In this document: piece after piece, positions 1 through 32,745 of the stretch
How the letters are laid out: each line of letters starts with the position of its first letter
Position numbering within the stretch: position 1 is the first letter of the stretch
Virus record (IMG/VR): IMGVR_UViG_3300028844_005055
Location: 1 to 38,511 of that record
Source: a virus
Direction: 5' to 3' (one strand)
Length of the DNA stretch: 38,511 nucleotides
Made by a program: the position numbers and the translations under genes
The notes under the pieces: generated by a model
What the model saw: the letters and a program-made list of their open reading frames with translations, nothing else
Database searches by the model: none
Told to the model about the DNA's origin: nothing

Positions 1-80
1 TTGATCTCATGTATGATACGCCTGATCAAGATATCAAGGAACTAGAATTGACATCAGAGCACTTTGGTAATACTGGCTAA
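1..80 (+). CDS. 3' end of an unidentified gene (partial)
   Basis: An open frame (codons from position 3) runs from the window edge through 25 sense codons to TAA at 78-80. The visible tail ends in ELELTSEHFGNTG and is acidic. I do not recognise it. It reads into a promoter that starts about 30 bases later, so it is probably the last gene of a preceding unit. Only its direction and end can be stated. Confidence 0.45.
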   Translation, partial: DLMYDTPDQDIKELELTSEHFGNTG

Positions 81-110
81 GTTGTTGTAAACATTGAGCG
101 ATTTTGACAG

Positions 111-162
111 TTGACAATCCTGATAAACTTGGTATAATGGTTACATAATCGAGAGAACAGAG
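111..162 (+). promoter_or_regulatory. Sigma70-type early promoter and conserved leader, copy 1
   Basis: TTGACA (111-116), a 16-base spacer and a perfect TATAAT (133-138). A second TTGACA sits at 104-109. The element recurs at 2300-2353: an identical 18-base run tataatggttacataatc (133-150 and 2324-2341), followed by (g/a)agagaac(a/g)gag and a short gene. A repeated promoter plus leader is typical of phage early genes read by unmodified host polymerase. Confidence 0.8.
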
Positions 163-171
163 ACTGACAAT

Positions 172-261
172 ATGAACAAAGCGCAACATGAGAAATGGCT
201 GAGGAAGCAAGGTCTGCTTCCTTCACAGGTCAAGGAAAAAAAGCTTGACAATGATACTTAA
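172..261 (+). CDS. Small basic protein, 29 residues
   Basis: ATG at 172 opens a 29-codon frame ending at TAA 259-261. The product, starting MNKAQHEKWLRKQGLLPSQV, is charged and lysine-rich. It resembles very short, uncharacterised phage proteins with a WLRxxGxxPxQ(I/V)K pattern, though I recall this only loosely. It lies directly behind a perfect early promoter whose leader carries GAG-rich sequence, but no strong ribosome binding site. The same arrangement (promoter, leader, short gene) is found at 2300-2456, which supports its being a real early gene. No function can be assigned. Confidence 0.5.
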   Translation: MNKAQHEKWLRKQGLLPSQVKEKKLDNDT

Positions 262-278
262 TAATGATAATATATAAT
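245..278 (+). promoter_or_regulatory. Possible promoter for the 164-residue protein gene
   Basis: TTGACA at 245-250 lies inside the end of the 29-residue gene. Possible -10 boxes are TAATAT at 268-273 (17-base spacing, imperfect) or TATAAT at 273-278 (22-base spacing, too long). A strong Shine-Dalgarno follows at 289-294. Plausible but unproven. Confidence 0.35.
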
Positions 279-300
279 ATATTAAATTAAGGAGAAGTAA

Positions 301-330
301 GTGGAGACTTGCTCAAGGTTATTAATATGA
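301..330 (+). CDS. Possible 9-residue leader peptide
   Basis: AAGGAG at 289-294 is ideally placed, six bases ahead of GTG at 301. That frame encodes METCSRLLI and stops at TGA 328-330, overlapping the ATG at 327 of the next gene as ATGA. The best ribosome binding site of the locus therefore serves this tiny frame, and translation of the downstream gene may be coupled to it. Alternatively an in-frame TTG at 309 could be used by the larger gene. Confidence 0.3.
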   Translation: METCSRLLI

Positions 331-821
331 AAGTTAGAATAGGACCTTATAGAAAGAACAGGGCGGTCAATATAGAAATTGAGCCTTTTGATACTTGGAG
401 TATGGATCGTACTCTTGCTCTTATCATTCTACCCATGCTCAAGCAACTAAAGGATACCAAGCACGGTGCTCCTTATGTTGATTCGGAAGATGTGCCACGT
501 GAACTCCGTCCAGGTGGTGAAGAACTTCGTGCCTATAACAGAGATGGAACTACTGACGAACATTTCTTTGAACGTTGGGATTGGGCATTGGACGAAATGA
601 TCTTTGCATTTGACAGCAAGGTCAATGACGGATGGGAAGAACAATTTGAAACTGGAACTAGCGACATCCAGTGGAAAACGCTAGAAGGCGGAATGTGCGA
701 AATGATTCGCGGACCCAACGATACCAAAGAGTATGACTTGGAAGGTCGCAAAAAGTACGAAGAGCGTATTTCAAACGGATTTAGACTGTTTGGAAAGTAC
801 TACTCCTCGTTATGGGATTAA
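327..821 (+). CDS. Conserved T4-like phage protein, 164 residues, unknown function
   Basis: The product starts MKVRIGPYRKNRAVNIEIEP and contains DTWSMDRTLALIILPMLKQL (about residues 22-41), a segment I recognise from uncharacterised proteins of many T4-like marine phages. The middle is rich in Asp, Glu and Trp, followed by a basic C-terminus (GRKKYEERISNGFRLFGKYY). It has no signal peptide or membrane helix. ATG at 327 is preferred because this protein family begins near MKVxIG; an in-frame TTG at 309 would add six residues. The gene is separated from gp32-A by about 200 bases, and its stop overlaps that of a small minus-strand frame. The role is unknown; early expression is suggested by the upstream promoters. 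Confidence 0.8.
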   Translation: MKVRIGPYRKNRAVNIEIEPFDTWSMDRTLALIILPMLKQLKDTKHGAPYVDSEDVPRELRPGGEELRAYNRDGTTDEHFFERWDWALDEMIFAFDSKVNDGWEEQFETGTSDIQWKTLEGGMCEMIRGPNDTKEYDLEGRKKYEERISNGFRLFGKYYSSLWD

Positions 822-925
822 CTTTTACAATGCTCGTTATGGTTCTTATAGAAGTTAGGCGATTGTTTAGCAGTATGTCCGCATTTAGTACAAGTCTGGC
901 CGTCCGTACCAAAAATAGTTGACAC
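818..925 (-). CDS. Putative zinc-finger microprotein, 35 residues
   Basis: A minus-strand frame starting with GTG (923-925) and stopping at TAA (818-820) encodes a 35-residue protein with a C-x2-C-x13-H-x3-C arrangement: C12, C15, H29 and C33. The motif (TCTKCGH ... NFYKNHNEHCK) looks like the small Zn-binding modules common in phage proteins and near homing endonucleases. Its stop overlaps the stop of the convergent 164-residue gene by four bases. No Shine-Dalgarno is visible and the only starts are GTG or TTG. It may be a real microprotein, a zinc-finger fragment left from a larger gene, or chance, though four correctly spaced ligands make chance less attractive. Confidence 0.4.
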   Translation of the reverse strand: MSTIFGTDGQTCTKCGHTAKQSPNFYKNHNEHCKS

Positions 926-947
926 GAACAACAACACGTGATACTAT
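919..947 (+). promoter_or_regulatory. Probable promoter of gp32 copy A
   Basis: TTGACA at 919-924, a 17-base spacer and TACTAT at 942-947 (four of six matches to TATAAT). It lies about 75 bases ahead of the gp32-A start, leaving a long leader. Confidence 0.5.
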
Positions 948-963
948 ACAAACATAATACGAA

Positions 964-1014
964 TAGGGTGATGACCTACCATCAATACAATGCTAATACG
1001 ATGCAATACAAGGA
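964..1014 (+). promoter_or_regulatory. Structured, repetitive gp32-A leader; candidate autogenous operator
   Basis: TGATG (969-973) can pair with CATCA (980-984), while TAGG (964-967) can pair with CCTA (975-978), an interleaved pseudoknot-like arrangement. It is followed by repeated AATAC units (about 985-1020) and the ribosome binding site AAGGA (1010-1014). T4 gp32 represses its own mRNA by nucleating at a leader pseudoknot and spreading over unstructured repeats; this layout is similar. The one-base linkers make the pseudoknot sterically tight. Confidence 0.35.
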
Positions 1015-1021
1015 AAATACA

Positions 1022-1933
1022 ATGGACTTTAATAAACTCAAGAAGAACCGCAAAGCAGCTCTGAACAAGCTCCAGAATGAGCTGAACGAATCATCGGATG
1101 GTGGCAACAAGAAGTCATATCAAGATGATCGTTACTGGCAGCCAGCCACTGACTCTGTTGGTAATGGCTATGCGGTTGTTCGCTTCCTTCCACCTTCTGA
1201 TCCTGATGGTGACTGCTGGGTTCGCTTGTTCAGCCATGGCTTCAAAGGCCCAACTGGCATGTGGTACATCGAGAACAGCCGTACAACACTCGGTGAACAA
1301 GATCCTGTTGGTGAACTCAACAACCAACTGTGGAACTCTGGACAAGAAGATGAAGCACGACGTCAGAAGCGCCGCTTGCACTTCATTTCCAATGTTCTTG
1401 TTGTTAAGGATACTGCTAACCCTGAAAACGAAGGTACAGTTCGCCTCTTTAAGTATGGCAAGAAGATTTTCGAAAAGCTGAACCAGGCAATGAATCCTGA
1501 GTTTGAAGACGAAGAAGCATTGAACCCATTTGATATGTGGGAAGGTGCAAACTTTGCAATCAAGATTCGCCAGGTCGAAGGCTATCGTAACTATGACAAG
1601 TCAAGCTTCATGACACCATCGCCAGTTGCTGATGATGACAGTGAGATTGAAACTATCTGGAAGCGTTCACATGATCTGAACGAATTTATCTCTGAAAAGA
1701 ACTTCAAGTCATACAATGAGCTAAAGGAAAAGCTAAACAAGGTTCTTGGCCTTGGTTCAGTTACTCCTGCAGCACAGGTCATGGTTGAAGATGCCAAGGA
1801 AGATGTTGTTGCAGCTCCTGCACCTGTTGCAAAGGCTGAACCAGCACCTGCTCCAAAGGCAGCAGCTGCTCCAGCAGCGTCTGATGACGATGACCTTGAT
1901 CTTGATGCACTCCTGAAGGATCTGGATGACTAA
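1022..1933 (+). CDS. 32: Single-stranded DNA-binding protein gp32, copy A
   Basis: This 303-residue protein coats single-stranded DNA during phage replication, recombination and repair. It shows the gp32 layout: a basic N-terminus (MDFNKLKKNRKAALNKL) for cooperative binding, an OB-fold core with NGYAVVRFLPP, HGFKGPTGMWYIENS, QKRRLHFISNVLVVKD and FKYGKKIFEKL, and an Ala/Pro-rich linker leading to an acidic tail (DDDDLDLDALLKDLDD) like the T4 protein-interaction domain. The T4 zinc-ligand cysteines after WYIE are replaced (ENSRTTLGEQDPVGE), so it is probably zinc-free. ATG at 1022 is chosen over an upstream ATG in frame because AAGGA lies seven bases before it and the family starts at MDF. Its coding DNA is much richer in GC than copy B (33 of 60 bases in 1201-1260). 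Confidence 0.96.
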   Translation: MDFNKLKKNRKAALNKLQNELNESSDGGNKKSYQDDRYWQPATDSVGNGYAVVRFLPPSDPDGDCWVRLFSHGFKGPTGMWYIENSRTTLGEQDPVGELNNQLWNSGQEDEARRQKRRLHFISNVLVVKDTANPENEGTVRLFKYGKKIFEKLNQAMNPEFEDEEALNPFDMWEGANFAIKIRQVEGYRNYDKSSFMTPSPVADDDSEIETIWKRSHDLNEFISEKNFKSYNELKEKLNKVLGLGSVTPAAQVMVEDAKEDVVAAPAPVAKAEPAPAPKAAAAPAASDDDDLDLDALLKDLDD

Positions 1934-1961
1934 TGCAACAGCTAGTGGTTGCTGTGAAGAA

Positions 1962-1982
1962 GGATTGGGCTGGGCCCAATCC
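1962..1982 (+). terminator. Strong hairpin after gp32-A
   Basis: GGATTGGGC (1962-1970) pairs perfectly with GCCCAATCC (1974-1982) over a three-base loop. No T-run follows, so it is not a canonical intrinsic terminator. It could stabilise the gp32 mRNA end, act with Rho, or limit read-through into the next gene. Confidence 0.4.
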
Positions 1983-2008
1983 GATTCATCTGTGAGAGGG
2001 ATAATAAA

Positions 2009-2281
2009 ATGTCACTTATTACTATTAAAATCAAGCGTTCTAAAAAAGATATCGCTAGTGTTATCAAGAATGTTGAGACACTTGATGATGCGATCGATGT
2101 GCTGCGCAAAATTTGGGATACGAAAGGTCCTACTGCCGAAATGGCTGTTAGGCCTATTACAAACGCTCAACTGAAAGAAGCACATGATTCGATCCATGAC
2201 TACCTTCCGTCTGACGTGGAACCTGATGAAAATGATACGCACCAAATTGATGAAGTTACGGGTATTCCTAAGTGGTTGTAA
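2009..2281 (+). CDS. Hypothetical protein, 90 residues
   Basis: The product begins MSLITIKIKRSKKDIASVIK, continues with a predicted helical stretch (DDAIDVLRKIWDT) and ends in an acidic tail with VTGIPKWL. Composition is soluble, with no membrane segment or cysteine motif. AGAGGG sits about nine bases ahead of the start. It follows gp32-A by 75 bases across the hairpin and is followed by the second early promoter. I do not recognise a family. Confidence 0.65.
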   Translation: MSLITIKIKRSKKDIASVIKNVETLDDAIDVLRKIWDTKGPTAEMAVRPITNAQLKEAHDSIHDYLPSDVEPDENDTHQIDEVTGIPKWL

Positions 2282-2299
2282 ACGTTATGATAATTTGAT

Positions 2300-2353
2300 A
2301 GTTGACAATCACCTCAGATTTGATATAATGGTTACATAATCAAGAGAACGGAG
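2300..2353 (+). promoter_or_regulatory. Sigma70-type early promoter and conserved leader, copy 2
   Basis: TTGACA (2302-2307), a 16-base spacer and a perfect TATAAT (2324-2329). It shares agttgacaatc, the 18-base run tataatggttacataatc and the agagaac leader core with the element at 109-162. GGAG at 2350-2353 doubles as the ribosome binding site of the short gene at 2361. Confidence 0.8.
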
Positions 2354-2360
2354 CACAGAT

Positions 2361-2456
2361 ATGAAGAAACATGATGAAACCTTTTCCATATTAATGGGCG
2401 GCTTGGTTATAGCTTCTATCTGTGCCCTACTAATCTTTTTGGCACTAGCAAGGTAA
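2361..2456 (+). CDS. Single-pass membrane microprotein, 31 residues
   Basis: The ATG at 2361 follows GGAG by seven bases. The frame encodes a charged N-terminus (MKKHDETF) and one hydrophobic helix rich in Leu, Ile and Ala (about residues 9-30), ending ALAR. It is the first gene after a strong early promoter. Short early membrane proteins of phages often affect host envelope or superinfection, but nothing here shows that specifically. Confidence 0.55.
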   Translation: MKKHDETFSILMGGLVIASICALLIFLALAR

Positions 2457-2461
2457 AAACC

Positions 2462-2707
2462 ATGACCAAGTATGATAACATTCGTGAACAGTTAGAAGAC
2501 ATGGGCATTGATTGCAAAACAACACAGGATGCCAGTTTGCCAGATGAGTATGCTCGTTATATCGCGGTAATTAATGGTCGTTATTCATATGCAGCGTCAT
2601 CACCACTGGCTATACAAAACTATTGTGAGGATCTAAAGCAAGTTGGTATTGAAGCAGACAATATACCACTTGATGATGGATTTTGGGCAGGAGTGCGTAA
2701 CCAATAA
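2462..2707 (+). CDS. Hypothetical protein, 81 residues
   Basis: The product starts MTKYDNIREQLEDMGIDCKT and reads as a small soluble alpha/beta protein with the segments DEYARYIAVINGRYSYAASSPLAIQNYCEDLKQVGIEAD. It has two cysteines, no recognisable metal-binding arrangement and no membrane helix. It lies five bases after the 31-residue gene, so both are probably read from the promoter at 2302. I do not recognise a family; its early position suggests a host-takeover or accessory role, which is inference. Confidence 0.6.
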   Translation: MTKYDNIREQLEDMGIDCKTTQDASLPDEYARYIAVINGRYSYAASSPLAIQNYCEDLKQVGIEADNIPLDDGFWAGVRNQ

Positions 2708-2710
2708 ATA

Positions 2711-2767
2711 ACATTGTGACGTAGTGCTATTAAAAGGTGTACGTCTTTATTGTAATTCAAGCAATGT
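2711..2767 (+). promoter_or_regulatory. Possible RNA structure ahead of the phosphate permease
   Basis: ACATTG (2711-2716) can pair with CAATGT (2762-2767), enclosing GACGTA (2718-2723) that can pair with TACGTC (2740-2745). The inner hairpin is followed by a T-rich stretch. The outer stem closes just ahead of GAGG, the likely ribosome binding site of the permease. It may be a leader structure or a weak terminator. I saw no clear promoter here. Confidence 0.25.
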
Positions 2768-2779
2768 GAGGTAATAGTC

Positions 2780-3742
2780 ATGTTTGATTTAACTCTATGG
2801 ATGTGGTTAGGTTTTCTCTTAGCTGCTTATTCTGTCATAGCGAATGACAGTGTACAAACTCTTGGAACATGGATGGCATCAAACCGTTCCGTTTCAAAAC
2901 TTTACATGTGGGGCGCAGCATCATCAGTATTGGTATTCACTCTCTTCTATGGTTGGTATATTAATAATGGTGATATTAGTTATGGTCGATTGAACAAAAT
3001 TCCTTTTATTGAAGTTCAATGGTATCATGCCTTGGCACCTGCATTACTTTTATTGTTAACTCGATTTGGTATTCCTGTATCTACTAGTTTTCTTGTTTTA
3101 AGTGCATTTGCATCCACTTTTATTTTGGAGAAAATGTTACTTAAATCAATGGCAGGATATGCAGTGGCAGCAGTAGCAGCATATGTTCTATGGATTATTA
3201 TTACATATGTTTCTAATAAAATGCCAATCGGTCAAATTAATGATAAAGGATATGGTGAAAATCATAATAAATGGGTAGTTGCTCAATGGGTAACAACTGG
3301 TTTTCTATGGTACACTTGGTTGAGTCATGATATTGCAAATATTGCTGTGTTTCTACCACGTGAAATTTCACTAGATTTACTTCTGGTCATTTGTTTTGTT
3401 TTTGTTGTTGCTCTTGCATTCATGTTTCGTGAGGGTGGTGGTAAAATTCAAAATATTGTAATTGAAAAAGATAGTACTCGATATGTCAGGTCAGCAACAC
3501 TTATTGATGCTGCATATTTTGTCATTCTTTATATTTTCAAAGAAGTAAACGATATTCCAATGAGTACAACTTGGGTATTTGTTGGTCTATTAGCAGGACG
3601 AGAATTTGCAATTGCTTCACTATCTGGTAAAACAAAATTCAAGAAAGTTTTCCCACTTATTGGTATGGATTTTCTAAAAATGATGATTGGATTATCAGCA
3701 TCTGTTGCTATTGTTCTATTAATTCACTTAGTCTTGTCATAA
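2780..3742 (+). CDS. PiT-family inorganic phosphate permease
   Basis: This 320-residue integral membrane protein has about eight to ten hydrophobic segments and the duplicated signatures of the PiT/PHO4 family: YSVIANDSVQTLGT (about residues 18-31) and SHDIANIAVFLP (about 183-194) correspond to the GANDVAN repeats, while GIPVSTSFLVLSAF (about 97-110) and DIPMSTTWVFVGLLAG (about 257-272) match the PVSTTH repeats. PiT proteins import phosphate with H+ or Na+. In a phage this would be an auxiliary metabolic gene raising phosphate supply for DNA synthesis in a phosphate-poor sea. It stands alone between a possible leader structure and a strong terminator. It is more AT-rich than gp32-A. Exact substrate and coupling ion cannot be read from sequence. 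Confidence 0.85.
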   Translation: MFDLTLWMWLGFLLAAYSVIANDSVQTLGTWMASNRSVSKLYMWGAASSVLVFTLFYGWYINNGDISYGRLNKIPFIEVQWYHALAPALLLLLTRFGIPVSTSFLVLSAFASTFILEKMLLKSMAGYAVAAVAAYVLWIIITYVSNKMPIGQINDKGYGENHNKWVVAQWVTTGFLWYTWLSHDIANIAVFLPREISLDLLLVICFVFVVALAFMFREGGGKIQNIVIEKDSTRYVRSATLIDAAYFVILYIFKEVNDIPMSTTWVFVGLLAGREFAIASLSGKTKFKKVFPLIGMDFLKMMIGLSASVAIVLLIHLVLS

Positions 3743-3749
3743 CAAAAAC

Positions 3750-3789
3750 AGAGAATGCCATGTACAAAACAAGATTCATGGCATTCTCT
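3750..3789 (+). terminator. Terminator after the phosphate permease
   Basis: AGAGAATGCCATG (3750-3762) and CATGGCATTCTCT (3777-3789) form a perfect 13-base-pair stem with a 14-base loop, followed by an A/T-rich stretch ending in TTATTTTA. It separates the permease from the tmRNA promoter. Confidence 0.85.
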
Positions 3790-3810
3790 AAATTATTTTA
3801 ATAATATTGG

Positions 3811-3841
3811 TTGACAAATGATTTTTCATATGGTATAAATA
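3811..3841 (+). promoter_or_regulatory. tmRNA promoter with both sigma70 and T4 late signals
   Basis: TTGACA (3811-3816), an ideal 17-base spacer and TATAAA (3834-3839). The -10 region reads TATAAATA (3834-3841), which is the exact T4 late promoter consensus. Transcription would start near 3846-3848, at the predicted 5' end of the tmRNA acceptor piece. Confidence 0.8.
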
Positions 3842-3846
3842 TACTT

Positions 3847-3910
3847 GTGATTGTTTGAGGCAATCTTGAAACTAGACAGGACCCGAGTGCAATTCTCGGC
3901 ATCTCCACCA
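3847..3910 (+). ncRNA. ssrA: tmRNA acceptor piece (permuted, two-piece ssrA)
   Basis: This is the tRNA-like 3' half of tmRNA, lying upstream of the coding half as in circularly permuted genes. Visible parts: a hairpin GATTG/CAATC (3849-3865); a P2 strand (3871-3879) complementary in two blocks to 3982-3989; a T-stem CCGAG/CTCGG (3883-3899) with seven-base loop TGCAATT; and the acceptor strand CATCTCC (3900-3906), which pairs with GGGGATG at 3963-3969. An encoded ACCA ends at 3910. The mature RNA would be charged with alanine and rescue ribosomes stalled on broken messages. The exact 5' end is inferred from the promoter. Confidence 0.88.
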
Positions 3911-3962
3911 AAGGACATAGATGATTAGTGATGGGAATACAGATGCGGTCTGTGTCTTTTGG
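3911..3962 (+). other. Excised spacer of the permuted tmRNA precursor
   Basis: A 12-base-pair hairpin with two wobbles joins 3910-3921 (AAAGGACATAGA) and 3949-3960 (TCTGTGTCTTTT). It sits directly on the acceptor stem, so the precursor folds as one long rod. In bacteria with two-piece tmRNA this intervening segment is removed by tRNA-type processing, leaving two RNAs held by base pairing. Confidence 0.75.
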
Positions 3963-4129
3963 GGGGATGAATTAGGATCGACTGATAGTGTAGGGAAAGT
4001 TTAGATCACCGGCATGATACCACCGTTATCGGGTCCGTTAAATAGTTGCAAACGATAATGCACCTCTTGACTATGCTCTAGCAGCCTAGTCTGGGTCCGG
4101 TGGGAACCTGGAAACAGAATCCCACCACT
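3963..4129 (+). ncRNA. ssrA: tmRNA coding piece with proteolysis tag ANDNAPLDYALAA
   Basis: The piece opens with GGGGATG, pairing with the acceptor strand, and the conserved tmRNA segment ending GGATCGACTG. It continues through the P2 strand (3982-3989) and a structured stretch (hairpin GATA/TATC), then AATAGTT directly before the resume codon GCA at 4048-4050. The tag reading frame (4048-4089) encodes ANDNAPLDYALAA and stops at TAG. The ALAA end is the signal recognised by ClpXP-type proteases in bacteria. A hairpin GGTGGG/CCCACC (about 4098-4126) closes the piece. ANDN...ALAA resembles alphaproteobacterial tags such as that of Caulobacter. No terminator separates it from gene 33. Confidence 0.9.
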
Positions 4130-4146
4130 TAACTATGGAGATTGTT

Positions 4147-4389
4147 ATGAAAAACATAAATTTAAATGAAAACTTTACTCATCAAAATATTCTAAATGAA
4201 ATACAAAAATATTGTATTGATAAAAAACTTGAATACATTGATGGTGTAGTTTCTTGGTGTGAACAAAATAATGTTGAGGTTGAACTTATTGCAGGTTTAA
4301 TCAAAAAAGATCCAGTTATGATGTCAAAACTTCAGTATGAAGCAGAAGAATTGAACATTCTAGAGAAACCAAAAAGACTTCCCCTTTAA
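4147..4389 (+). CDS. 33: Late-transcription coactivator gp33-like protein
   Basis: In T4, gp33 bridges host RNA polymerase and the sliding clamp so that late promoters fire. This 80-residue product has the short helical form of marine gp33 proteins, with IEYIDGVVSWCEQNNVEVE-like and MSKLQYEAEELNIL segments. The identification is strengthened by the order 33-59-32, which is the T4 order. ATG at 4147 is preferred over 4135 because GGAG (4137-4140) lies six bases ahead. The stop overlaps the start of gene 59 by one base, implying coupled translation. Read-through from the tmRNA transcript is likely because no terminator intervenes. Homology is by pattern, not full alignment. Confidence 0.75.
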   Translation: MKNINLNENFTHQNILNEIQKYCIDKKLEYIDGVVSWCEQNNVEVELIAGLIKKDPVMMSKLQYEAEELNILEKPKRLPL

Positions 4390-4964
4390 TGACACCATTC
4401 GAAGCATTTTCAATGTACATTGCATTGAAAAATCACTTCACTCAGAAGAGATTTGACTACCTAAAATACAATGGTAAGTCACGAATGACTCAAAAATCAT
4501 TCGAAAAAAGAAAAGATAAGATATTTTTTCAGAAATTAGCAAAACACGAAGATGTTCAAGGGTTCCTTATTGCTAATTTTATCAAAAATCCCAAAAGTTG
4601 GATCAAAGAACTTGTCTACTCTGAAGAATCAGAGAGAGAATATAGGTCTTGGTTGAAGAAACAACAGTCTTTGACTTATTTGTTTAAGCAAGACCTATCA
4701 AAACTTGATGATGACTTCAATCAAAACCTAAAAATAGAGCAAAATCAACACCCAATAGTGTTAAAACTGTATTTGGGTAACAAAATATCGTTAGAAACAC
4801 TCTGTATACTGATTAAAATGACAAAAACTGAAAAATATTTTCATAAAAATCTAAAAGATGAACCAATATGGGAAGAAATTGAGTTAAAAATTAAAAAATA
4901 CACACCATTTATTCAGTATAATGAAGAAAAATTAAAGAAAATAGTCCTTGACTACTTTAAATGA
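4389..4964 (+). CDS. 59: Helicase loader gp59
   Basis: This 191-residue protein loads the gp41 replicative helicase onto gp32-coated forked DNA. The N-terminal region matches T4 gp59 closely: FSMYIALKNHFTQKRFDYLKYN (about residues 7-28) and KSFEKRKDKIFFQKLAKHED (about 36-55) correspond to the T4 stretches YKLYLMIKQHM...DVIKYN and YQKRRDKYFFQKL. It is all-alpha, basic and lysine-rich. The length is near the T4 value of 217. It lies between genes 33 and 32 as in T4, and so next to its partner gp32-B. The start overlaps the gp33 stop by one base. Confidence 0.92.
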   Translation: MTPFEAFSMYIALKNHFTQKRFDYLKYNGKSRMTQKSFEKRKDKIFFQKLAKHEDVQGFLIANFIKNPKSWIKELVYSEESEREYRSWLKKQQSLTYLFKQDLSKLDDDFNQNLKIEQNQHPIVLKLYLGNKISLETLCILIKMTKTEKYFHKNLKDEPIWEEIELKIKKYTPFIQYNEEKLKKIVLDYFK

Positions 4965-4980
4965 TTATGTTATATATAAT
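4948..4980 (+). promoter_or_regulatory. Candidate promoter of gp32 copy B
   Basis: TTGACT (4948-4953), a 17-base spacer and TATATA (4971-4976), extending into a second -10-like TATAAT (4975-4980). It lies at the end of gene 59, about 60 bases before the gp32-B start. Confidence 0.45.
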
Positions 4981-4982
4981 CT

Positions 4983-5034
4983 TGACTCAAATGAGTCATA
5001 TTCAACACTCAAACACTCAAACACTCGAAAGGAA
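4983..5034 (+). promoter_or_regulatory. gp32-B leader with hairpin and 8-base tandem repeats
   Basis: A six-base-pair hairpin TGACTC/GAGTCA (4983-4998, loop AAAT) is followed by three 8-base units, CAACACTC then AAACACTC twice (5003-5026), then GAAAGGAA ahead of the start. Each ACTC could also pair with GAGT of the hairpin. T4 gp32 regulates its own translation by binding a leader structure followed by unstructured repeats, and this leader has that form. Confidence 0.4.
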
Positions 5035-5039
5035 ATACT

Positions 5040-5933
5040 ATGGACTTCTCTAAATTGAAAAGTATGTCTGGAAAAAAGTCAATGGAAGCTCTCAATGCAG
5101 AACTTTCAAAGATGGCAAATCAAGACAGTGGTAAAAAAGGTGCAGATGAACGGTTTTGGACTCCTACAGTAGATAAATCAGGTAATGGCTACGCTATTAT
5201 TCGTTTTCTACCACCTCCAAGTGAAGAGGATGTTCCTTTTGTTCGTCTTTATGACCACGGTTTTCAAGGACCAACTGGACTTTGGTATATTGAAAACTCT
5301 TTAACAACAATTGGTAAACCAGATCCAGTTTCTGAGTATAATTCAAAACTATGGAACTCTGGTGTAGAGTCTGATAAAGAGATTGCTCGTAAGCAAAAAC
5401 GTCGTTTGCACTTTATTAGTAACATTTATGTTGTCACTGATTCTGCAAAACCAGAAAATGAAGGAAAAGTATTCCTTTACAAGTATGGTAAGAAAATCTT
5501 TGAAAAACTAAATGAAGCTATGAATCCACAGTTTGCTGATGAAGAGTCAGTAAACCCATTTGATTTATGGAATGGTGCAAATTTCAAACTCAAGATTCGT
5601 AATGTAGAAGGATATCGTAACTATGACCGTTCAGAGTTTGATTCTCCATCTGCTTTGAGTGAAGATGATTCTGAACTGGAGCGTATCTGGAAATCAGAAA
5701 ATTCTTTACAAGAGTTTGTAAATGAATCCAATTTTAAGTCCTATGAACAGTTGAAGGACCGTCTTATGCGGGTTCTTAATATGGAACAAAAACAAGAACC
5801 AGTATATCGTCCAGAGATGGATATTCCTGAAACTAAACAACCTGAATTTTCTAATACTGATTATCAGGTTACTAGTAATAACGACGATGGTGATGAATCA
5901 TTGGAGTTTTTTCAAAAACTGGCAAATAGCTAA
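5040..5933 (+). CDS. 32: Single-stranded DNA-binding protein gp32, copy B
   Basis: This 297-residue protein is clearly homologous to copy A across the OB core (NGYAIIRFLPPP, HGFQGPTGLWYIENS, QKRRLHFISNIYVV, LYKYGKKIFEKLNEAMNPQF, GANFKLKIRNVEGYRNYD). Like copy A it lacks the T4 zinc cysteines (ENSLTTIGKPDPVSE). The main difference is the C-terminus: no Ala/Pro linker and no DLDALLKDL-type acidic tail, but a longer variable segment ending ESLEFFQKLANS. In T4 that tail recruits gp59, polymerase and helicases, so the two copies may have different partners. Copy B sits in the canonical 33-59-32 operon and is AT-rich like the rest of the window, so it is the likely resident gene. A strong terminator follows. 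Confidence 0.96.
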   Translation: MDFSKLKSMSGKKSMEALNAELSKMANQDSGKKGADERFWTPTVDKSGNGYAIIRFLPPPSEEDVPFVRLYDHGFQGPTGLWYIENSLTTIGKPDPVSEYNSKLWNSGVESDKEIARKQKRRLHFISNIYVVTDSAKPENEGKVFLYKYGKKIFEKLNEAMNPQFADEESVNPFDLWNGANFKLKIRNVEGYRNYDRSEFDSPSALSEDDSELERIWKSENSLQEFVNESNFKSYEQLKDRLMRVLNMEQKQEPVYRPEMDIPETKQPEFSNTDYQVTSNNDDGDESLEFFQKLANS

Positions 5934-5939
5934 GTTTAA

Positions 5940-5962
5940 GGGGAGCAATGCTCCCCTTTTTT
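5940..5962 (+). terminator. Intrinsic terminator of the 33-59-32 operon
   Basis: GGGGAGC (5940-5946), loop AAT, GCTCCCC (5950-5956), then six T (5957-5962). It overlaps the 3' end of the convergent minus-strand gene, whose stop is at 5961-5963, and may also slow transcription from that side. Confidence 0.92.
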
Positions 5963-7610
5963 ATGTATCGCCCATATGTGCTTCTGAGTCTATTTGTGGT
6001 GTAGGATCTATTGGAGTTTTCGGAGAAGGTTGTGGTGTACGATCTATTGGAGTACGATATTCTTTTATTTTTCCAAAAGAAAGTTGTGCTGGTGATGTTG
6101 ATATTGATGTTGCTGGTGTTCCCACTAAAAATTCTGCTATTGCTCTCATTTCATTATTAGATAATGGTGGTATTTTGCTATCAGGAACTTCTGTTGGTAT
6201 ATCTTTTCGTTTTGATGGAACAACTTTTCCACCTCCTCTTGGTTTAGGAACAGGGGGTGGTGAAGTTTTACCTCTTCTTGATTTAGGAACAGATGGACTT
6301 CTTAATCGTTTAACCTGTTCTCTTAAAGTTTTAAGGTGTTTTTTTCTTATATATTCTAATTGTGGAGTTGCTTCACCCCTTCCACCATAATAACCTACTC
6401 TTTCTCTATCTCCACCACCGTGTAAGTGAGAACCTCTATCTCTTACTATTTGAGAGTGTGTCGTTAATTGTTCTAATGATCCAGGTCTTCTAGCAAAAAA
6501 TCTAGCTAACTCACCACTTTCAACTGCTCCGTCTATACCTTCTTTACTAAATCCACCAATAAAACCAAGAGATGTAAAATTACGATTTACATTTGCACCT
6601 GAAGAAGTTCTTCCTTTTGTGTGATAAGTTCTTTGTTCTGGGTTTGCTGTTTCTATAACTCTACCATCCTTTGTTATAACAGCAGAATATCCAAGTCTAC
6701 TTCTATTACCAAGTCCACCTGATTGAAACTTTAATTGTTTTTCAAGTGTTTGATACCCAGCATCGTGTAAAACTGTTCCTCTGTAAGTTTCTCCTTTTTC
6801 AAAATTCATTGTTCCTGCACCAGATCTAGCATAACTTTGTTGTGATGGTTGGTAAACTTCTACATCTTTATTCTCAACATTAACTTCACTTGGTGATGGT
6901 TGAGTATCACCATAACTAGGAGAAGAACTTTCTGGTGATGATTGTCTACTCTCAGATGTATCTTCTGGCAGATTAAAATCTCGGTTTGTTCTTGCTTGTG
7001 GTGTTCTAGGTGATTCTTTTGTTAACCCAAGACTTTTACCAACTGTTGCTGCTAATGCAGGAACAGAACCTAGAAGTAATCCTACTAAAGCAGAAAGTAA
7101 AGATGGATTCTGTTTTAAATAGTTTATAATATCATCTTTTGTTATTGATGATAAACCTTTAAGTCTGTTTCTTAATGATGTAGATCCCTTTTTTTCTTTT
7201 TGTGTTATTTTTATAGAATCAACATTTTCACTAATATTTAAAAAATTAGCACTTAATGAAGAAATGTTTTCAACAATAGAACTAGATAAATTGTTTTCTG
7301 TTGAAGATATACCAGTTATTCTTTCACTAATAGTATTGAGTGTCTGAAATAATCTTTCTAATAAAGAACTATTTTTGTCTAATGAACTAGATAAACGAAC
7401 GATAGATTTATCAATGTTTTTAAGTTTAGGATCTAGTTCATTTAGTTTTCTTAACTTCAAGTCTAAAACACGAGATAATAATCTTAGATATCTTGAAATT
7501 TTATTATTATTTCTTTGTGCTTCAACTCTAAACAAGTTAATGCGTGTTCTAGTATTTCTTGTTTTAGAATTTAATAATGCTGATACTTTTTGAAGATCTG
7601 ATTCTAACAT
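5961..7610 (-). CDS. Virion protein with coiled coil and amidase-like domain
   Basis: This 549-residue protein starts with a Ser/Asn/Leu-rich coiled coil (about 1-135), followed by a hydrophobic patch LLSALVGLLLGSVPALAATV (about 171-190) and a TPQA...DFNLPEDTSESR linker shared with its neighbour. Residues 270-425 look like an N-acetylmuramoyl-L-alanine amidase (T7-lysozyme-type) fold: VLHDAG (H282), GYSAVITKDGRVIE, H330, NFTSLGFIGGF, and THSQIV (H385) with SHLHGG. A basic, Pro-rich C-terminus follows. It would cleave peptidoglycan when the tail penetrates the wall, or take part in lysis. It is the last gene of the minus-strand baseplate operon, three bases after the M15-domain gene. The exact zinc ligands are uncertain. 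Confidence 0.6.
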   Translation of the reverse strand: MLESDLQKVSALLNSKTRNTRTRINLFRVEAQRNNNKISRYLRLLSRVLDLKLRKLNELDPKLKNIDKSIVRLSSSLDKNSSLLERLFQTLNTISERITGISSTENNLSSSIVENISSLSANFLNISENVDSIKITQKEKKGSTSLRNRLKGLSSITKDDIINYLKQNPSLLSALVGLLLGSVPALAATVGKSLGLTKESPRTPQARTNRDFNLPEDTSESRQSSPESSSPSYGDTQPSPSEVNVENKDVEVYQPSQQSYARSGAGTMNFEKGETYRGTVLHDAGYQTLEKQLKFQSGGLGNRSRLGYSAVITKDGRVIETANPEQRTYHTKGRTSSGANVNRNFTSLGFIGGFSKEGIDGAVESGELARFFARRPGSLEQLTTHSQIVRDRGSHLHGGGDRERVGYYGGRGEATPQLEYIRKKHLKTLREQVKRLRSPSVPKSRRGKTSPPPVPKPRGGGKVVPSKRKDIPTEVPDSKIPPLSNNEMRAIAEFLVGTPATSISTSPAQLSFGKIKEYRTPIDRTPQPSPKTPIDPTPQIDSEAHMGDT

Positions 7611-7613
7611 TTT

Positions 7614-10220
7614 TTAAAAATCTTGATTTAAAGTATCAGGATCAATATATTGATTGAGTTTGATCTTGTGTTTTGGTGGTGGTGCTGTATTAACACCATT
7701 TCCAGGTTTATTTTCTCCTGGTGGAGGAGATATATCATTGAAAAATCCTCGTCCTGCTAAAGGACCTGCAACAGGTTGTCTTAGTGTTTGTGCTTGCGAT
7801 TCTTGTTTTTTTGCTTCTTCTTCTACTTTTCTAGCTCTTTTTAATATACCATCTAAAATTTTATTCATTTCATCTTTAGTTTTAGGTGGAGTAAGATCAG
7901 CATCGTCCATACTTTGAAGCATTTTAGATTGCTCCATTAACTCTTTCATTCTTTTTTCATCAACATATCTTTCATATCCAAGCATTCTTCCAAAATCAGA
8001 TGGTTCTCTTAAAATGTCTCTAAAATTAAGAAGTGGTTGTTTTTTTTCAATTCTTCCAAGAGCAGATGGTTTTAGTGGTTGTTTTTTTTCAATTCTACCC
8101 TCAATATCCTTACCTTCAGGCATAGCAGTTGCTTTATAGAATCCTTTTAAAAAATCTGGAACACCAGTTAAATCAGGTCTATTTGGTTCATAATCTTCAT
8201 CATCCATACCTTGATATTGTGTAGGATCGGCATCAGATGGATAATATGTTCTCATAAACTGATCTTCTTCATCTCTAAAGACACTTTCATTCTGTGAAGC
8301 TTTTGCTTGTGACACTCCTGGTATGAGTGATCTTAGTATATCTCCTGTTGTTACTGGTGCTTTATCTGTACCTGGTTGTGACACATCTGGATCAGGTTGT
8401 GTTTTAGCATCAGGTTGTCTTTGTCTCTCTCTTTGTTGTTTTGGTAAATCGTCTCTATTAAATCTACCAGACATATGTGAACGGATAACACGCCTTGCCC
8501 ATCCAGGTAAACTATTTCCACTATAGTTAGGTCCCCAATATCTTCTTGAACCCATATCTAAATGTATGCTATTAGCATAAACTCCAATTCCTTTGTAACC
8601 AAGTGCACTGGCATTTTTTATCAATTCTTGTCTTTGTTCTATAGATAAATGTCTAACATCTATATCGATAGCATTGCCGCTTGTGTGTTGTGATTTTTTT
8701 GCACCACCAACTCTTCTATTATAACTTGGCGATCTATAACCCGATATAACTTTAAGAGGTCCTACAAATCCTTGTAATTCATTAAATCTTGAAGTAACTT
8801 CTTCATTTGCACCAGATAATTTTCTTTGTGATGGAAATTGTCTAGGTTGTTCTTGTGATGGTTCTCTTCTAGCATCAGGATGAGGTGCTGTTTCTTGTCT
8901 TGATTGTTGTTGTCTTTCCTGTTCAATTCTTTTTTGATATTCTTGTGCTCTTATTCCGTGTTTTGTTCTATATCTTCCAGCACCTATACCACCACTATAA
9001 TAGTAATCTTTTGTTATATCTTTTTTACCAACACCAAGATATTGACCGTGTGCACCTGCTTGCATTCTTCTTCTTGCAACATCTAATGATGCGTTATCTG
9101 TTGCCATACTTGTATTATTTGCACCAGACATAGTTTTGTTTATAACACTTTGCTTAAATCTTTCTAATTCTTCTGGTGAAGGATTGTAATTTTTTACTAC
9201 AGGATAATAACCCCCTCTTACTCCTTCAGATCTAACTGAAGACATTGTTGAAGATAGAGATCTGCCTCTAAACATAGATCTATTAAAAACAGTTTCAGAA
9301 AATAGTTGTTGATTTATTGGATTTTTTCCAACTTCAGATCTAGATAAATTGTAAAGTCTTCTTATTACAGCAGGATTTTCTAATTCTTTTTCAAATACTG
9401 CTTTTCTATCTCTTGCTAGACTACCGCTATATTCACCAGAACTAGGAGTTGTACCAGACGGAGATAATGATGGTCCTTGGTCTGTTTGGCCGCCTGTTCT
9501 TCTACTTCCAGATGTATCTCGTGGTAGATTAAATTCTGCATCACTTCCTGCTTGTGGTGTTCCAGGAGGTTCTTTTCTTAAAGCTGCAGCAGTACCTAAA
9601 GCAGCAGCACCTAAGGCTAGGGGACTTGTTAAAATGCCTTTAATTCCAGATAATACTGAACCAATAAGACTCTGTTTTGTTTCTTCACCAGCTCCTGTGG
9701 CATCAGCAGCTGCTACACCAGAAACAGTTTTTCCAGTAGCAGGGTCTACAACAACTGTTCCTCTAGCACCTTCAACTGCAGCAGTTCTTGCTTCTCTCTC
9801 TTGTTGAAGAGAAAGTTTATCTACTTTTTCAGTTATATTTTGAGATTGGTTGGATAGATATGTTAGTTGGTTACTTGTAACTGTGGATAGTTTTTCAATG
9901 TTCTGAGAAACAGAATCTACAGTTCTTTGTAGTTGGGTTTGTTGTGATAATATATTATCAATTTTATTATTTGTGGCAGATACATTATCTGCCACATTTT
10001 GAACACTTGTTTGTATTGAATTTATCTCAGAAGAAATTTGATCTATTTTTGATAGTTTTTCATCAATAACAGATTTAATTGAACCTATAGTATTTTCAAG
10101 TGTTTGATTATTATTAGATGCTTCTTGTCTAAAATTATTAAGATTTGTAGATAATTCATCAACTTTTGAATTTATTAAATCACTTATCTTACTTAAAATT
10201 TCTTCTGATTCTACTGCCAT
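7614..10220 (-). CDS. Large virion protein with coiled coil and M15 peptidase; tape-measure or hub candidate
   Basis: This 868-residue protein has a long N-terminal coiled coil (about 1-145), a hydrophobic Ala/Leu patch (about 185-214), a TPQA...FNLPRDTSGSR linker (about 221-240), a SleB/muramidase-like region (about 281-340: SRSEVGKN...SETVFNRSMFRG) and an M15 peptidase domain (about 470-570) with SGYRS, QHTSGNAIDID (H512, D519) and IHLD (H553), the expected zinc ligands. A disordered tail includes GRIEKKQPL twice. M15 enzymes cut peptide cross-links in peptidoglycan. Its position after gp26-gp51, where T4 has 27, 28 and 29, and its coiled coil make a tape-measure or hub role plausible, but this is inference. 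Its last codons lie close to the next gene. Confidence 0.65.
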   Translation of the reverse strand: MAVESEEILSKISDLINSKVDELSTNLNNFRQEASNNNQTLENTIGSIKSVIDEKLSKIDQISSEINSIQTSVQNVADNVSATNNKIDNILSQQTQLQRTVDSVSQNIEKLSTVTSNQLTYLSNQSQNITEKVDKLSLQQEREARTAAVEGARGTVVVDPATGKTVSGVAAADATGAGEETKQSLIGSVLSGIKGILTSPLALGAAALGTAAALRKEPPGTPQAGSDAEFNLPRDTSGSRRTGGQTDQGPSLSPSGTTPSSGEYSGSLARDRKAVFEKELENPAVIRRLYNLSRSEVGKNPINQQLFSETVFNRSMFRGRSLSSTMSSVRSEGVRGGYYPVVKNYNPSPEELERFKQSVINKTMSGANNTSMATDNASLDVARRRMQAGAHGQYLGVGKKDITKDYYYSGGIGAGRYRTKHGIRAQEYQKRIEQERQQQSRQETAPHPDARREPSQEQPRQFPSQRKLSGANEEVTSRFNELQGFVGPLKVISGYRSPSYNRRVGGAKKSQHTSGNAIDIDVRHLSIEQRQELIKNASALGYKGIGVYANSIHLDMGSRRYWGPNYSGNSLPGWARRVIRSHMSGRFNRDDLPKQQRERQRQPDAKTQPDPDVSQPGTDKAPVTTGDILRSLIPGVSQAKASQNESVFRDEEDQFMRTYYPSDADPTQYQGMDDEDYEPNRPDLTGVPDFLKGFYKATAMPEGKDIEGRIEKKQPLKPSALGRIEKKQPLLNFRDILREPSDFGRMLGYERYVDEKRMKELMEQSKMLQSMDDADLTPPKTKDEMNKILDGILKRARKVEEEAKKQESQAQTLRQPVAGPLAGRGFFNDISPPPGENKPGNGVNTAPPPKHKIKLNQYIDPDTLNQDF
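8031..8098 (-). repeat. Tandem 42-base repeat inside the M15 gene, each with an A8 run
   Basis: A segment of about 26 bases at 8031-8056 recurs with one change at 8073-8098, a 42-base period. On the coding strand each copy has eight consecutive A within the codons for GRIEKKQPL. This explains the duplicated peptide; the homopolymers are also sites where polymerase or ribosome slippage could occur. Confidence 0.8.
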
Positions 10221-25531: not shown

Positions 25532-28500
25532 ATGTCATCTTTAAAAACAAATTTTAATGTTTCTCCATATTTTGATGATTATGATGAAGATAAGAATTTT
25601 TATAAAATTTTGTTTAGACCCTCTGTTGCTGTTCAAGCAAGAGAATTGACACAACTCCAAACAATTTTACAAAAACAAATTGAAAGATTTGGTAACAATG
25701 TTTTTAAAGATGGTACTATAGTTGATGGTGTTGCAATATTTTATTATCCAAATTTAGATTACATATCTATTGAAGACAAAATATATTTTGCAAATGGTGT
25801 AGAATCAACAGTTGTTCCTACTGATCTAAATGTTTACTCATTAGATCCTCAAACATATATTGTTACAAATTCAACAGATTCAAATAATGCTGTTAGAGCA
25901 AATATTAAGTTAGCAAAAAGTGGATTAAAATCAACCGCACCAAATACTAATAGATTTTATCTTGATTATATAACTTTTGGTACAGATTCTTCTAACAATA
26001 AAGTTTCTACATTTTTACCAGGAGACACTCTTTACATATATTCTGAAAATCAAAATGAATTTGGAACATTAGACGCTAATAATTTATTATACACAACAAA
26101 TACTATTGCTACAAATAGTAGTTTTACATCTAATGGACAATCTTATTCTGTAGGTGTTTCAGATGGTATAATTTTTCAAAAAGGATTTTTTTCAAAAGTA
26201 GAACCACAGGTTGTAACTGTTAATGAATTTTCTACAAATGTAACAGGTTATGTTGTTGGTTTTGAGACAGCAGAAAATATTATAAACGACCAAGAAGATT
26301 TAAGTTTAACAGACAATGCTCTAGGATATCCTAATGAAAATGCTCCTGGTGCATATAGATTAAAATTAAATCCGACTTTAGTATCAAAATTAAAAACAGA
26401 CACATCAAATACTAACTTTTTTTCTATTGTAGAATTTGATTCAAATGAACCAACACAGCAAAGAGATATAACTGAATATAATGCTATTCAAAAAGAGTTA
26501 GCAAAAAGAACATATGAAGAATCTGGTGATTATTTTATTAAACCATTCACTGCTGAAACAAGAGTTAATTCTTCTAATTCACAATCTTTCTTTTATGAAA
26601 TGTCTTCTGGTATTGCTTATGTTCGTGGTAATAGAATAGAAAAAATATCCACCGTTAATGTTGAAGCAGATAGAGCAATAGCAACTGAATTTGCGGAAAA
26701 TCAGATTGTTACAGCAAATTATGGTAATTATGTCATATGTGATGAATTTGTGGGCGTTTTTGATACAGAACAACTTTCTGAAGTAACTCTTTACGATTCT
26801 CCACAAAATTCTATATCTGAATATGAAGGAAGTACATCAACTCCAGTTGGAACATCTGTTGGTAAAGCAAATGTTAGAGCAGTTTCGTTTGAAGAGGGCG
26901 TAAAGGGCAGTCCTACCGGAAAATATTATGTATACTTATTTAATATTCAAATGAATTCTGGAAAAAGTTTTTCCTCCGATGTAAAAAGTCTTTATATGTC
27001 TGGTTCTTTTGGTGATGCTAAAGCAGATATTGTATTGGAAGGTGGTATTGCTAAACTAAAAGACACAACTAAAAAATCTTCAGTGTTTGATAGTGGACTA
27101 CTTGCAATAAAAAGATTAACAAATAATACTGGAATTGGTGATACAAACTTTACATATTCTCAGATAAAATCAGGTACTATAAATGGGTCTGGTATATTAA
27201 CAATATCACTTGACACTCCAGCAACTGGTGCTTCAACAGAAAGACTTAATCAATCTTCTGGTTCTGTGTTAACTGGTTCTTTATTGGAAGAATATGATGT
27301 ATTTTTATCAACGAATGCATATTCTGCTAACTTAACAGGAAATGTTTCTATAACTGCAGGTTCTTCTAGTGTTATAGGAGACGGTACAGATTTTACAAAT
27401 GAACTAGCAGCAAACTCTAATATTAGAGTTTATGCAAACTCAACACAAACATATATAAAAAGAATTGTATCTATTGGGAATAGCACATCTTTAACAGTGG
27501 ATTCGTCATTTTCAGAATCTAATACAGCAAGTAAATTTGGTAAATATTTTGTCACAGGAACCCCATTACCACTTGCAAATGTTACTATAAATTCTAATAC
27601 CTCATTTTCTGCTAATTTGGGTTTAACATTGGATAGTGGTTCTCAAACCATTTATGCATCATATATTGTAAATAGAAACCAAGCAAACCCTATACCAAAA
27701 ATAATAAATAAAAATAAATTTGTAAAAATTGATTGTAGTAATAATGTTGCTACTAGTGTAGGTCCTTGGGACTTAGGATTTTCTGAAGTTCATAAAATTA
27801 GAAATATTTATGTTGGTACGACATATGCAAACACAAATCCTAATAGAACAACTTGGTTTAATCTAGACAGAGGCAGCAGAGAAGATGCATTAGAACATTC
27901 TAGATTATTTGTAAAACCTGAATATGCATCTAACATATCAGGATCTACTAAGTTTTTGATAGAATTAGACCACTTTACCGCAAACACTTCTGCTTCAGTG
28001 GGATTCTTTTCTGTTGAATCATATCCTATAGATGATGTTAATACTGCAAATACAAATGCTATACAGACTATAGAATTACCAGTAGAAAACGAATCAGAAA
28101 TAAGAAATTTTATTGATTTTAGATCAATAAAATCAAATACTGCGATTTCTTCTTCTACAGAAGGTTCTGCTACTATAAATCCAGCATTAAATACAAATAA
28201 TTACGTTATACCAGCAACTGGACAACATATGATTGTTCCTGATAGTAATTTTGTAGCAGATTATGAATATTATTTGCCTAGAAGAGACATCATTACTATA
28301 AATCCAATTGGCGAGTTCATAGTAAACCAAGGTGTTCCATCAGAAATACCTCAAGCACCATTTGTTGAAAACGATCAAGTTTTATTAAAAGAAACTTTTG
28401 TTCCACCATATCCTTCTGCTACAAGAAGAGAATATGAGACTTATAAGTCTTCTCAAGAAATAAAAATATTTGATAGGTCTAATCGTAGATATACTATGAA

Positions 28501-32076: not shown

Positions 32077-32745
32077 ATGAATAAAAATGATATTTCTGCA
32101 TTTGCTATACCAATTAGATATGGTATGTTAAATGTTAATGATTTGAATAAAAAATTAATAGAAGATATATTTTTAGAATTGAATAATAACGGAAACGAAA
32201 AAAGAAGTGGTGTAGGTGTTTATCAAACCAAATCTGGTTTAGAAAAAAAATATGAAAGTTTTAAAACTCTTTCTGAAAAAATTAAATATTTTTTGTTAGA
32301 TTTTATGAAGAATGTTAAAGTATACGATGAGTTTTTTATTAAAGATGTATGGGGCAATATTAATAATGATCCATTTGCTTTTCATATGCCTCATTCACAT
32401 GGTATAAATAATTCTTGTATTTTTACTGGAGTTTATTTTCCTACCTCTGGGTATCTTGATAATGATATATCAAAAGAATGTAATAATTCTAAGTCTCCTA
32501 TAATTACATCTAAAACACAACCAAATCCTGGAGATTTAGTTTTATTAGATCCAAATGAAAATATAAAAACGGCAATAGCAACTAAAAAAACTGAAAAATA
32601 TCCTTTTTTTGGAAATCCTATTTGTATAACTCCTATTAAAAATACTATAGTTGTTTTTCCGTCTTATTTGAATCATATGGTTACACCATCCAAGAAAGAA
32701 AATTATACTAGAATAAGTATAGCATATAATGTGAGTGTTTTATGA
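32077..32745 (+). CDS. 2OG-Fe(II) oxygenase
   Basis: This 222-residue protein belongs to the 2-oxoglutarate/iron-dependent oxygenases of the type often seen in marine phages: FAFHMPHSHGINNSCIFTGVYFP (about residues 100-122, with the H106-x-H108 pair of the HxH/D motif), GDLVLLDP (152-159) and IVVFPSYLNHMVTPSKKENYTRISIAYNV (191-219), giving distal ligand H200 and 2OG-binding R212. All catalytic elements are present. Substrate is unknown: protein side chains and nucleic-acid bases are both known for the superfamily. Its stop overlaps the carbamoyltransferase start (ATGA), making it the first gene of a coupled four-gene cassette of very low GC content. Confidence 0.85.
   Translation: MNKNDISAFAIPIRYGMLNVNDLNKKLIEDIFLELNNNGNEKRSGVGVYQTKSGLEKKYESFKTLSEKIKYFLLDFMKNVKVYDEFFIKDVWGNINNDPFAFHMPHSHGINNSCIFTGVYFPTSGYLDNDISKECNNSKSPIITSKTQPNPGDLVLLDPNENIKTAIATKKTEKYPFFGNPICITPIKNTIVVFPSYLNHMVTPSKKENYTRISIAYNVSVL

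Follow-up and report, generated by a model that had tools for sequence, protein, structure and literature searches.

A two-piece phage tmRNA gene whose acceptor, T-arm and intervening segment appear to have been exchanged as one cassette

The window, by which we mean the whole 38,511-base IMG/VR record analysed here, carries T4-like genes: gp33, gp59 and gp32 occupy 4135-5933, and genes for baseplate, tail and head follow further along. Upstream of gp33, positions 3811-4129 of the + strand hold a circularly permuted tmRNA gene of the alphaproteobacterial, two-piece type (Table 1), as a first-pass annotation had proposed from the letters alone. The covariance-model search with alpha_tmRNA (RF01849), which that annotation had named as the check, matched 3793-4129 on the + strand over the full model (1-355) at 130.9 bits (E 1.2e-35; gathering cut-off 50 bits), tmRNA_permuted (RF04321) matched 3847-4089 at 115.7 bits (E 4.3e-22; gathering cut-off 47 bits), and ARAGORN reported a permuted tmRNA at 3818-4180 with the tag ANDNAPLDYALAA, all of which bear the identification out.

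Table 1. Features of the tmRNA locus and the genes that follow it (positions in the window).
Feature	Position	Strand	Basis
Sigma-70-type promoter: TTGACA (3811-3816), 17-nt spacer, TATAAA (3834-3839)	3811-3839	+	
Hairpin, 5′ end of first piece	3849-3865	+	Co-fold
P2-side strand ending GGAC, common to close relatives	3866-3882	+	
Swapped cassette: T-arm, acceptor 3′ strand, CCA, spacer, acceptor 5′ strand	3883-3969	+	blastn breaks
T-arm CCGAG-TGCAATT-CTCGG	3883-3899	+	Rfam alignment
Acceptor 3′ strand (3900-3906), A73 (3907), encoded CCA (3908-3910)	3900-3910	+	Rfam alignment, sequence
Intervening segment (spacer), 52 nt, hairpin	3911-3962	+	
Doubtful 27-codon ORF behind AAGG (3911-3914), ATG 3921, stop 4002-4004	3921-4004	+	Translation
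Acceptor 5′ strand GGGGATG, G3.U70 (3965.3904)	3963-3969	+	Rfam alignment
D-loop motif GGATCGAC	3975-3982	+	
Tag frame ANDNAPLDYALAA and stop	4048-4089	+	ARAGORN
3′ hairpin/pseudoknot region GGTGGGA...TCCCACC	4099-4129	+	Rfam alignment; fold
gp33-like late promoter co-activator	4135-4389	+	phrog_254, E 5.9e-12
gp59 helicase loader	4389-4964	+	phrog_269, E 2.1e-54
gp32 single-strand DNA-binding protein	5040-5933	+	phrog_224, E 1.2e-112

The gene order is permuted, the T-arm and acceptor 3′ strand preceding the acceptor 5′ strand and the tag, and the T-stem, CCA, acceptor strands and tag frame all lie where the first-pass annotation had placed them. The acceptor strands are paired at 7/7 positions and contain G3.U70, the alanine identity pair. 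A hairpin had been claimed between the two halves, and the segment 3911-3962 does fold as one, continuing the acceptor stem (-13.8 kcal/mol by itself; -38.9 kcal/mol for 3883-3969). Co-folding of the two predicted mature RNAs (3847-3910 with 3963-4129) gives an interaction energy of -16.3 kcal/mol (calculated without pseudoknots), which beats 100/100 shuffled pairs (-7.0 ± 3.0 kcal/mol, lowest -14.4); several P2 pairs joining the two pieces are non-standard in the Rfam alignment. The tag ends in a proteolysis-type tail, ALAA being a degradation signal. Conservation of the tag frame in relatives, on which the original proposal had staked itself, was also found: ANDNAPLDYALAA recurs in 9/10 of the loci whose gp59 shows 98% identity or more. 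None of the 16 tag types in 61 bacterial genes, among the matches listed, is identical to it, and there is no SmpB gene within the 38.5-kb fragment.

The tmRNA promoter agrees with the consensus at 11/12 positions and has TGG before its -10 element; among the matches listed, a site with at least 10/12 positions stands in 56/90 distinct viral upstream regions, versus a mean of 3.8 in shuffles. A double early/late promoter was also considered, but the T4 late motif TATAAATA occurs 7 times on the + and once on the - strand, against an expectation of 4.4 per strand, and such a promoter is therefore not claimed. Two 12/12 sites (TTGACA-16-TATAAT, + strand) lie upstream of the tmRNA operon at 111 and 2302. 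We found no terminator-like site in 3500-4500, in agreement with the earlier claim that none separates the tmRNA from gene 33 in this T4-like context. A 13-bp hairpin at 3750-3790, terminator-like without a T-run, lies between the promoter and a 320-aa ORF just upstream of the tmRNA (2780-3742; no Pfam or PHROGs match), and the stretch 3740-3800 folds at -20.1 kcal/mol. For gp33, the ATG at 4147, preceded by GGAG at 4138-4141, is a more likely start than 4135.

Both the kind of gene and its position upstream of the co-activator are already known, since they were published for marine T4-like phages in 2022 (PMC9004378): in Melnitz, a marine T4-like phage, the gene of the late-transcription co-activator comes immediately after a two-piece tmRNA, an arrangement that we confirmed in its sequence record (MZ577097). 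The same paper counts a tmRNA in 402/18,146 phage genomes, describes 53/133 unique phage tmRNA structures as two-piece, 50/53 of them marine or aquatic, and reports permuted tmRNAs in 17/47 Melnitz-related contigs; a tmRNA database contains 79 bacteriophage sequences, according to PMC11915505. Among the loci collected here, ARAGORN finds a tmRNA in 23/26 IMG/VR loci identified through gp59, and none in the other three (L012-L014), all of which are fragments. The position before gp33 is the usual one for this phage group: a gp33 match lies at most 4 kb downstream on the same strand in 85/117 viral tmRNA loci among the matches listed, a set in which some contigs stand under two locus ids (e.g. 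L007/L031) and Melnitz is included. Because of these counts, the argument that such genes are rare in phages and permuted ones rarer, on which the first-pass annotation had based part of its interest, fails. The pattern script found no tmRNA in HTVC008M at 143,000-147,284 and 1-2,000.

Melnitz and the pelagimyophages share with the window a permuted alpha-type tmRNA, a TTGACA-17-TATAAA promoter and a position before the late co-activator and gp59. Melnitz differs in having another tag, a glutamine riboswitch after the tmRNA, of which Rfam finds none in the window, and a 142-nt spacer with a 54-codon ORF that stands behind GGAG and reads into the tmRNA. Alphaproteobacterial permuted tmRNAs (RF01849, RF04321) resemble the window's in gene order, acceptor, T-arm, tag and D-loop motif; their spacers, by contrast, are short and their T-arms near-invariant, and the window's T-arm differs from the common bacterial form.

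A blastn search of the window tmRNA against isolate phages gave no match, so relatives were compared through gp59 and DNA patterns. When positions 1-8000 of the window were aligned by blastn to L002-L009 and L011, identity was 93.9-98.7% up to 3882 and 94.8-99.6% from 3970, and nothing aligned with 3883-3969 in any of these loci. For L007, L008 and L009, the left 0.65-1.2 kb aligned at 97.1-98.0% and the right 2.0-2.3 kb at 95.5-98.5%. The 87 unaligned bases coincide precisely with the T-arm, acceptor 3′ strand, CCA, spacer and acceptor 5′ strand. At this site the close relatives carry a T-arm and an acceptor of different sequence, and their spacers are of at least three types. In L010, which has a 68-nt spacer, the alignment runs unbroken through the block region, yet T-arm and acceptor are again different. 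Between the window and L002, 8/12 stem pairs are changed on both sides, all of them standard pairs, with G3.U70 kept. By these alignments, 3883-3969 is a block foreign to the close relatives that has been swapped as one unit. Seven other viral contigs (L039-L045) match its T-arm, acceptor 3′ strand and CCA letter for letter, their remaining tmRNA parts and tags being different from the window's, and the block as a whole occurs in this one record only. The T-arm/acceptor 26-mer is absent from all genome_contigs records, and a recent bacterial donor was thus not found; together with the seven viral contigs, this points to an exchange between phage lineages or to an unsampled source.

To compare phage and bacterial genes, loci were drawn with one DNA pattern for the tag (at least 120 viral and at least 118 bacterial), from which a pattern script recognised 74 distinct viral and 62 distinct bacterial permuted tmRNAs among the matches listed; the remaining loci were duplicates or unrecognised (contig ends, other tmRNA types, imperfect pairing). 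The script demanded full pairing, so that retained pairing in this main survey is so by construction. In a relaxed scan, which chose the best-paired candidate, favoured U70 in ties and tried only GGG-starting acceptors, all 7 acceptor and 5 T-stem pairs were present in 73/76 distinct viral tmRNAs and G3.U70 in 76/76, among the matches listed. The median spacer measured 80 nt in viral genes (n = 74) versus 33.5 nt in bacterial genes (n = 62; Mann-Whitney p 8e-11) among the matches listed, a p-value that is only indicative because related sequences were pooled, cluster counts being the fairer measure; spacers of at least 100 nt occurred in 25/74 viral versus 2/62 bacterial genes, again among the matches listed.

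Among the matches listed, pairs with mRNA-like halves at least 88% identical (36 viral and 239 bacterial; 93 distinct viral genes used) show a T-arm plus acceptor identity of 0.84 in viral versus 0.98 in bacterial genes, even though the mRNA-like halves in those pairs are more alike in viral (0.96) than in bacterial genes (0.93). The T-arm differs within 12/16 viral versus 1/6 bacterial clusters, and 53 T-arm forms occur in 110 viral genes (some contigs under two locus ids, Melnitz included) versus 6 in 61 bacterial genes, of which 52 carry one and the same sequence; these counts too are among the matches listed, and the pair and T-arm comparisons exclude L001, L028, L322, L047-L049, L165, L199 and short-flank loci. 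A second bacterial sample was drawn from one class, with RF01849 matched in 266/289 genomes; 80 loci were fetched and 55 parsed, the 25 unparsed coming mostly from small genomes. One of two T-arm sequences was present in 46/55, the spacer median was 28 nt, and 1/55 had a spacer of at least 100 nt. Bacterial T-arms are near-invariant, those of phages hypervariable. Some viral pairs (L022/L025, L164/L200) show smaller compensated stem changes with spacer length unchanged. One bacterial permuted tmRNA (L380, 1501-2407) spans 907 nt, with a repetitive spacer and a T-arm near the common bacterial form.

Long phage spacers frequently contain open reading frames. Among the matches listed, 13/25 viral spacers of at least 100 nt have an ORF of at least 25 aa that begins with ATG and follows a motif like a ribosome site (shuffles: mean 1.0 and never above 3 in 200 rounds) and the other 12 have none, and 12/25 have an ORF of at least 40 aa versus 0.2 in shuffles (maximum 2); both bacterial spacers of this length (2/2, among the matches listed) lack such an ORF. 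Three families of spacer ORF occur in more than one locus, and their pN/pS lies at 0.10-0.59 over 14 comparisons with few changes each, exceeding 0.5 in 2/14 (0.54 and 0.59; others 0.10-0.50). Two spacer ORFs have free-standing counterparts in Melnitz. One, the 62-aa ORF of L133, shares 52% of 61 aligned residues with the gene that immediately precedes the Melnitz tmRNA; the other, the 120-aa ORF of L125, shares 53% of 83 residues with a different Melnitz gene. Eight whole long-spacer genes were checked with Rfam, of which seven (L088, L099, L125, L128, L133, L138, L323) pass both the tmRNA_permuted and the alpha_tmRNA cut-offs and the eighth, L096, passes tmRNA_permuted only (52.8 bits vs 47). 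The window's own ORF, which runs from the spacer start into the tmRNA, is doubtful as a gene; such read-out ORFs of at least 20 codons occur in 8/92 distinct viral tmRNAs among the matches listed, a count with no chance control. It is the relatives that point to protein-coding spacers.

Two tmRNA lineages, among the matches listed, carry an HNH gene in the spacer. In L030, L038 and L046 a 207-codon HNH gene stands between CCA and the acceptor 5′ strand, matching the homing endonuclease family phrog_655 (E 2.8e-12); the Pfam HNH score of the L030 protein, 20.0 bits, is below the cut-off of 21.4. The acceptor strands flanking the gene are paired at 7/7 positions with G3.U70 present. Ahead of the L030 HNH gene lies a remnant of the D-region, and the gene itself ends within the tmRNA; its last residues, STDSVGKV, also terminate the window's ORF, because the two ORFs share this part of the tmRNA and the frame in which it is read. 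The L030 copy is the weakest and may be damaged, since it falls short of both Rfam cut-offs (43.0 of 50 and 40.2 of 47 bits) and has a T-loop of 6 nt and a link to the D-loop motif of 3 nt (5 nt in the window). ARAGORN finds no tmRNA in L030, L038 or L046, and long-spacer tmRNA genes may thus escape existing gene finders. In L030 a tRNA-Asn (6192-6267) directly follows the tmRNA, in place of gp33. The second lineage, L096 (and L165, with the same tmRNA), has a 154-aa HNH protein of the same family (phrog_655, E 6.8e-14), 46% identical to the L030-type protein and encoded wholly within a spacer whose ends are complementary. Neither HNH protein nor the Melnitz spacer ORF had a match in 198 bacterial loci. 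An association of HNH relatives with tmRNAs in general was rejected: the pattern script found a permuted tmRNA in 0/34 further HNH loci (L050-L083).

On the strength of these comparisons, we consider it probable that 3811-4129 is a working phage tmRNA whose acceptor, T-arm and spacer are exchanged as a cassette, the spacer acting as an intron-like cargo slot. Transcription would begin early, about 8 nt past the TTGACA/TATAAA promoter, and host tRNA-processing enzymes would excise the 52-nt segment, RNase P cutting 5′ of 3963 and 3′ processing ending at 3910. The two pieces would assemble with host SmpB and alanyl-tRNA synthetase, be charged with alanine and rescue, in an SmpB-dependent manner, ribosomes stalled on broken mRNA during infection, the products being tagged ANDNAPLDYALAA. 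Rescue of ribosomes on cleaved mRNA and tagging that differs from the host's, both of them suggestions of the first-pass annotation, are plausible. Since the permutation sets the T-arm and both acceptor strands around the spacer, a single recombination event can replace the entire unit with every base pair intact. The spacer, being cut out, could hold additional genes as an intron does. In the window's phage one block has been exchanged for another; the blocks of relatives differ from it, and some of them contain small genes or the gene of an HNH homing endonuclease. More tentatively, small protein genes and HNH genes may use the spacer as an intron-like docking site, conversion by homing may have made T-arm and acceptor hypervariable with pairing kept, and the window may be a recent product.

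As to what drives the exchange, homing is possible and deserves weight, short of being the expected answer. A spacer HNH endonuclease would cut tmRNA genes that lack one, repair would copy the block with its flanking stems, and the HNH gene would later be lost, as in the window. Homing would account for the presence of one HNH family in the spacers of two tmRNA lineages, for a left exchange edge at the same base (3882) in the window and in HNH-bearing loci, and for the D-region remnant before the HNH gene in L030. Against this stand the low number of lineages (two, among the matches listed), a window block without HNH trace and the 0/34 other HNH loci with a permuted tmRNA.

Rather unlikely, by our estimate, is an arms race at the RNA level, in which host toxins or nucleases hit acceptors or T-arms, phages escape by compensated stem changes and the spacer genes are passengers. 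Such a race fits the near-invariant bacterial T-arm (52/61 with one sequence, among the matches listed, and 46/55 with two), its 53 forms in phages, among the matches listed, and the compensated changes at constant spacer length in L022/L025 and L164/L200; in the window, however, the block exchange is sharp and takes in the discarded spacer, a change that selection on the RNA would not require. Since the difference within some pairs amounts to a few compensated positions and within others to an entire block, homing and RNA-level selection may act together. Relaxed constraint, under which the tmRNA would be a decaying passenger with drifting stems, is very unlikely: the window scores 130.9 bits when the best bacterial genes reach up to 312.6, and some phage loci have no tmRNA, but paired stems, G3.U70, CCA, tag and promoter are all kept. 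Least credible of all is a metagenome assembly chimera, for although the whole block occurs in one record, full acceptor complementarity is kept across its join, its T-arm/acceptor sequence is present in seven other viral contigs, and the same kind of variation recurs in several other lineages.

The cassette reading has partial parallels. Homing endonuclease genes of the LAGLIDADG type are described in group I introns of the tmRNA T-loop (PMC11915505). Those introns resemble L030 and L096 in placing a homing endonuclease gene in a removed part of the tmRNA; the introns self-splice and sit in the T-loop, whereas L030 and L096 carry HNH genes in the spacer of a permuted gene, where no splicing is needed. 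For the intervening sequence of permuted tmRNAs, that paper reports one case of an inserted tRNA-Ala and a repeat in the longest permuted gene; these insertions occupy the same spacer as the phage ORFs but do not code for protein, and L380 is a repeat case of this kind. Searches of the open-licence literature brought up no account of HNH genes or small ORFs inside a permuted-tmRNA spacer, nor of cassette-type evolution of a permuted tmRNA gene; the available text of PMC9004378 is without the words intervening, homing, HNH, T-loop, acceptor and tag peptide.

tmRNA is a highly conserved bacterial RNA. That its T-arm and acceptor may be rewritten by cassette, with genes in the discarded part, would be a consequence of circular permutation of which the open-licence literature yielded no description. 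The phage blocks offer natural, fully paired acceptor and T-arm variants with which the needs of SmpB, EF-Tu and alanyl-tRNA synthetase could be probed, and the spacer ORFs invite one to ask whether a single transcript acts as pre-tmRNA and as mRNA. The idea is testable in Melnitz, a published isolate whose spacer bears an ORF.

Elsewhere in the window, a second gp32-like gene lies at 938-1933 (phrog_224, E 2e-107), on the same fragment as the gp32 gene of Table 1. An 868-aa protein (7614-10220), encoded near the baseplate hub gene, has an M15 peptidase domain and is possibly a tail-borne wall-cutting enzyme. A 2112-aa ORF spans 25532-31870, and a Nol-like carbamoyltransferase is encoded at 32742-34229 (phrog_1601, E 1.9e-123); a gene so named is also present in HTVC008M.
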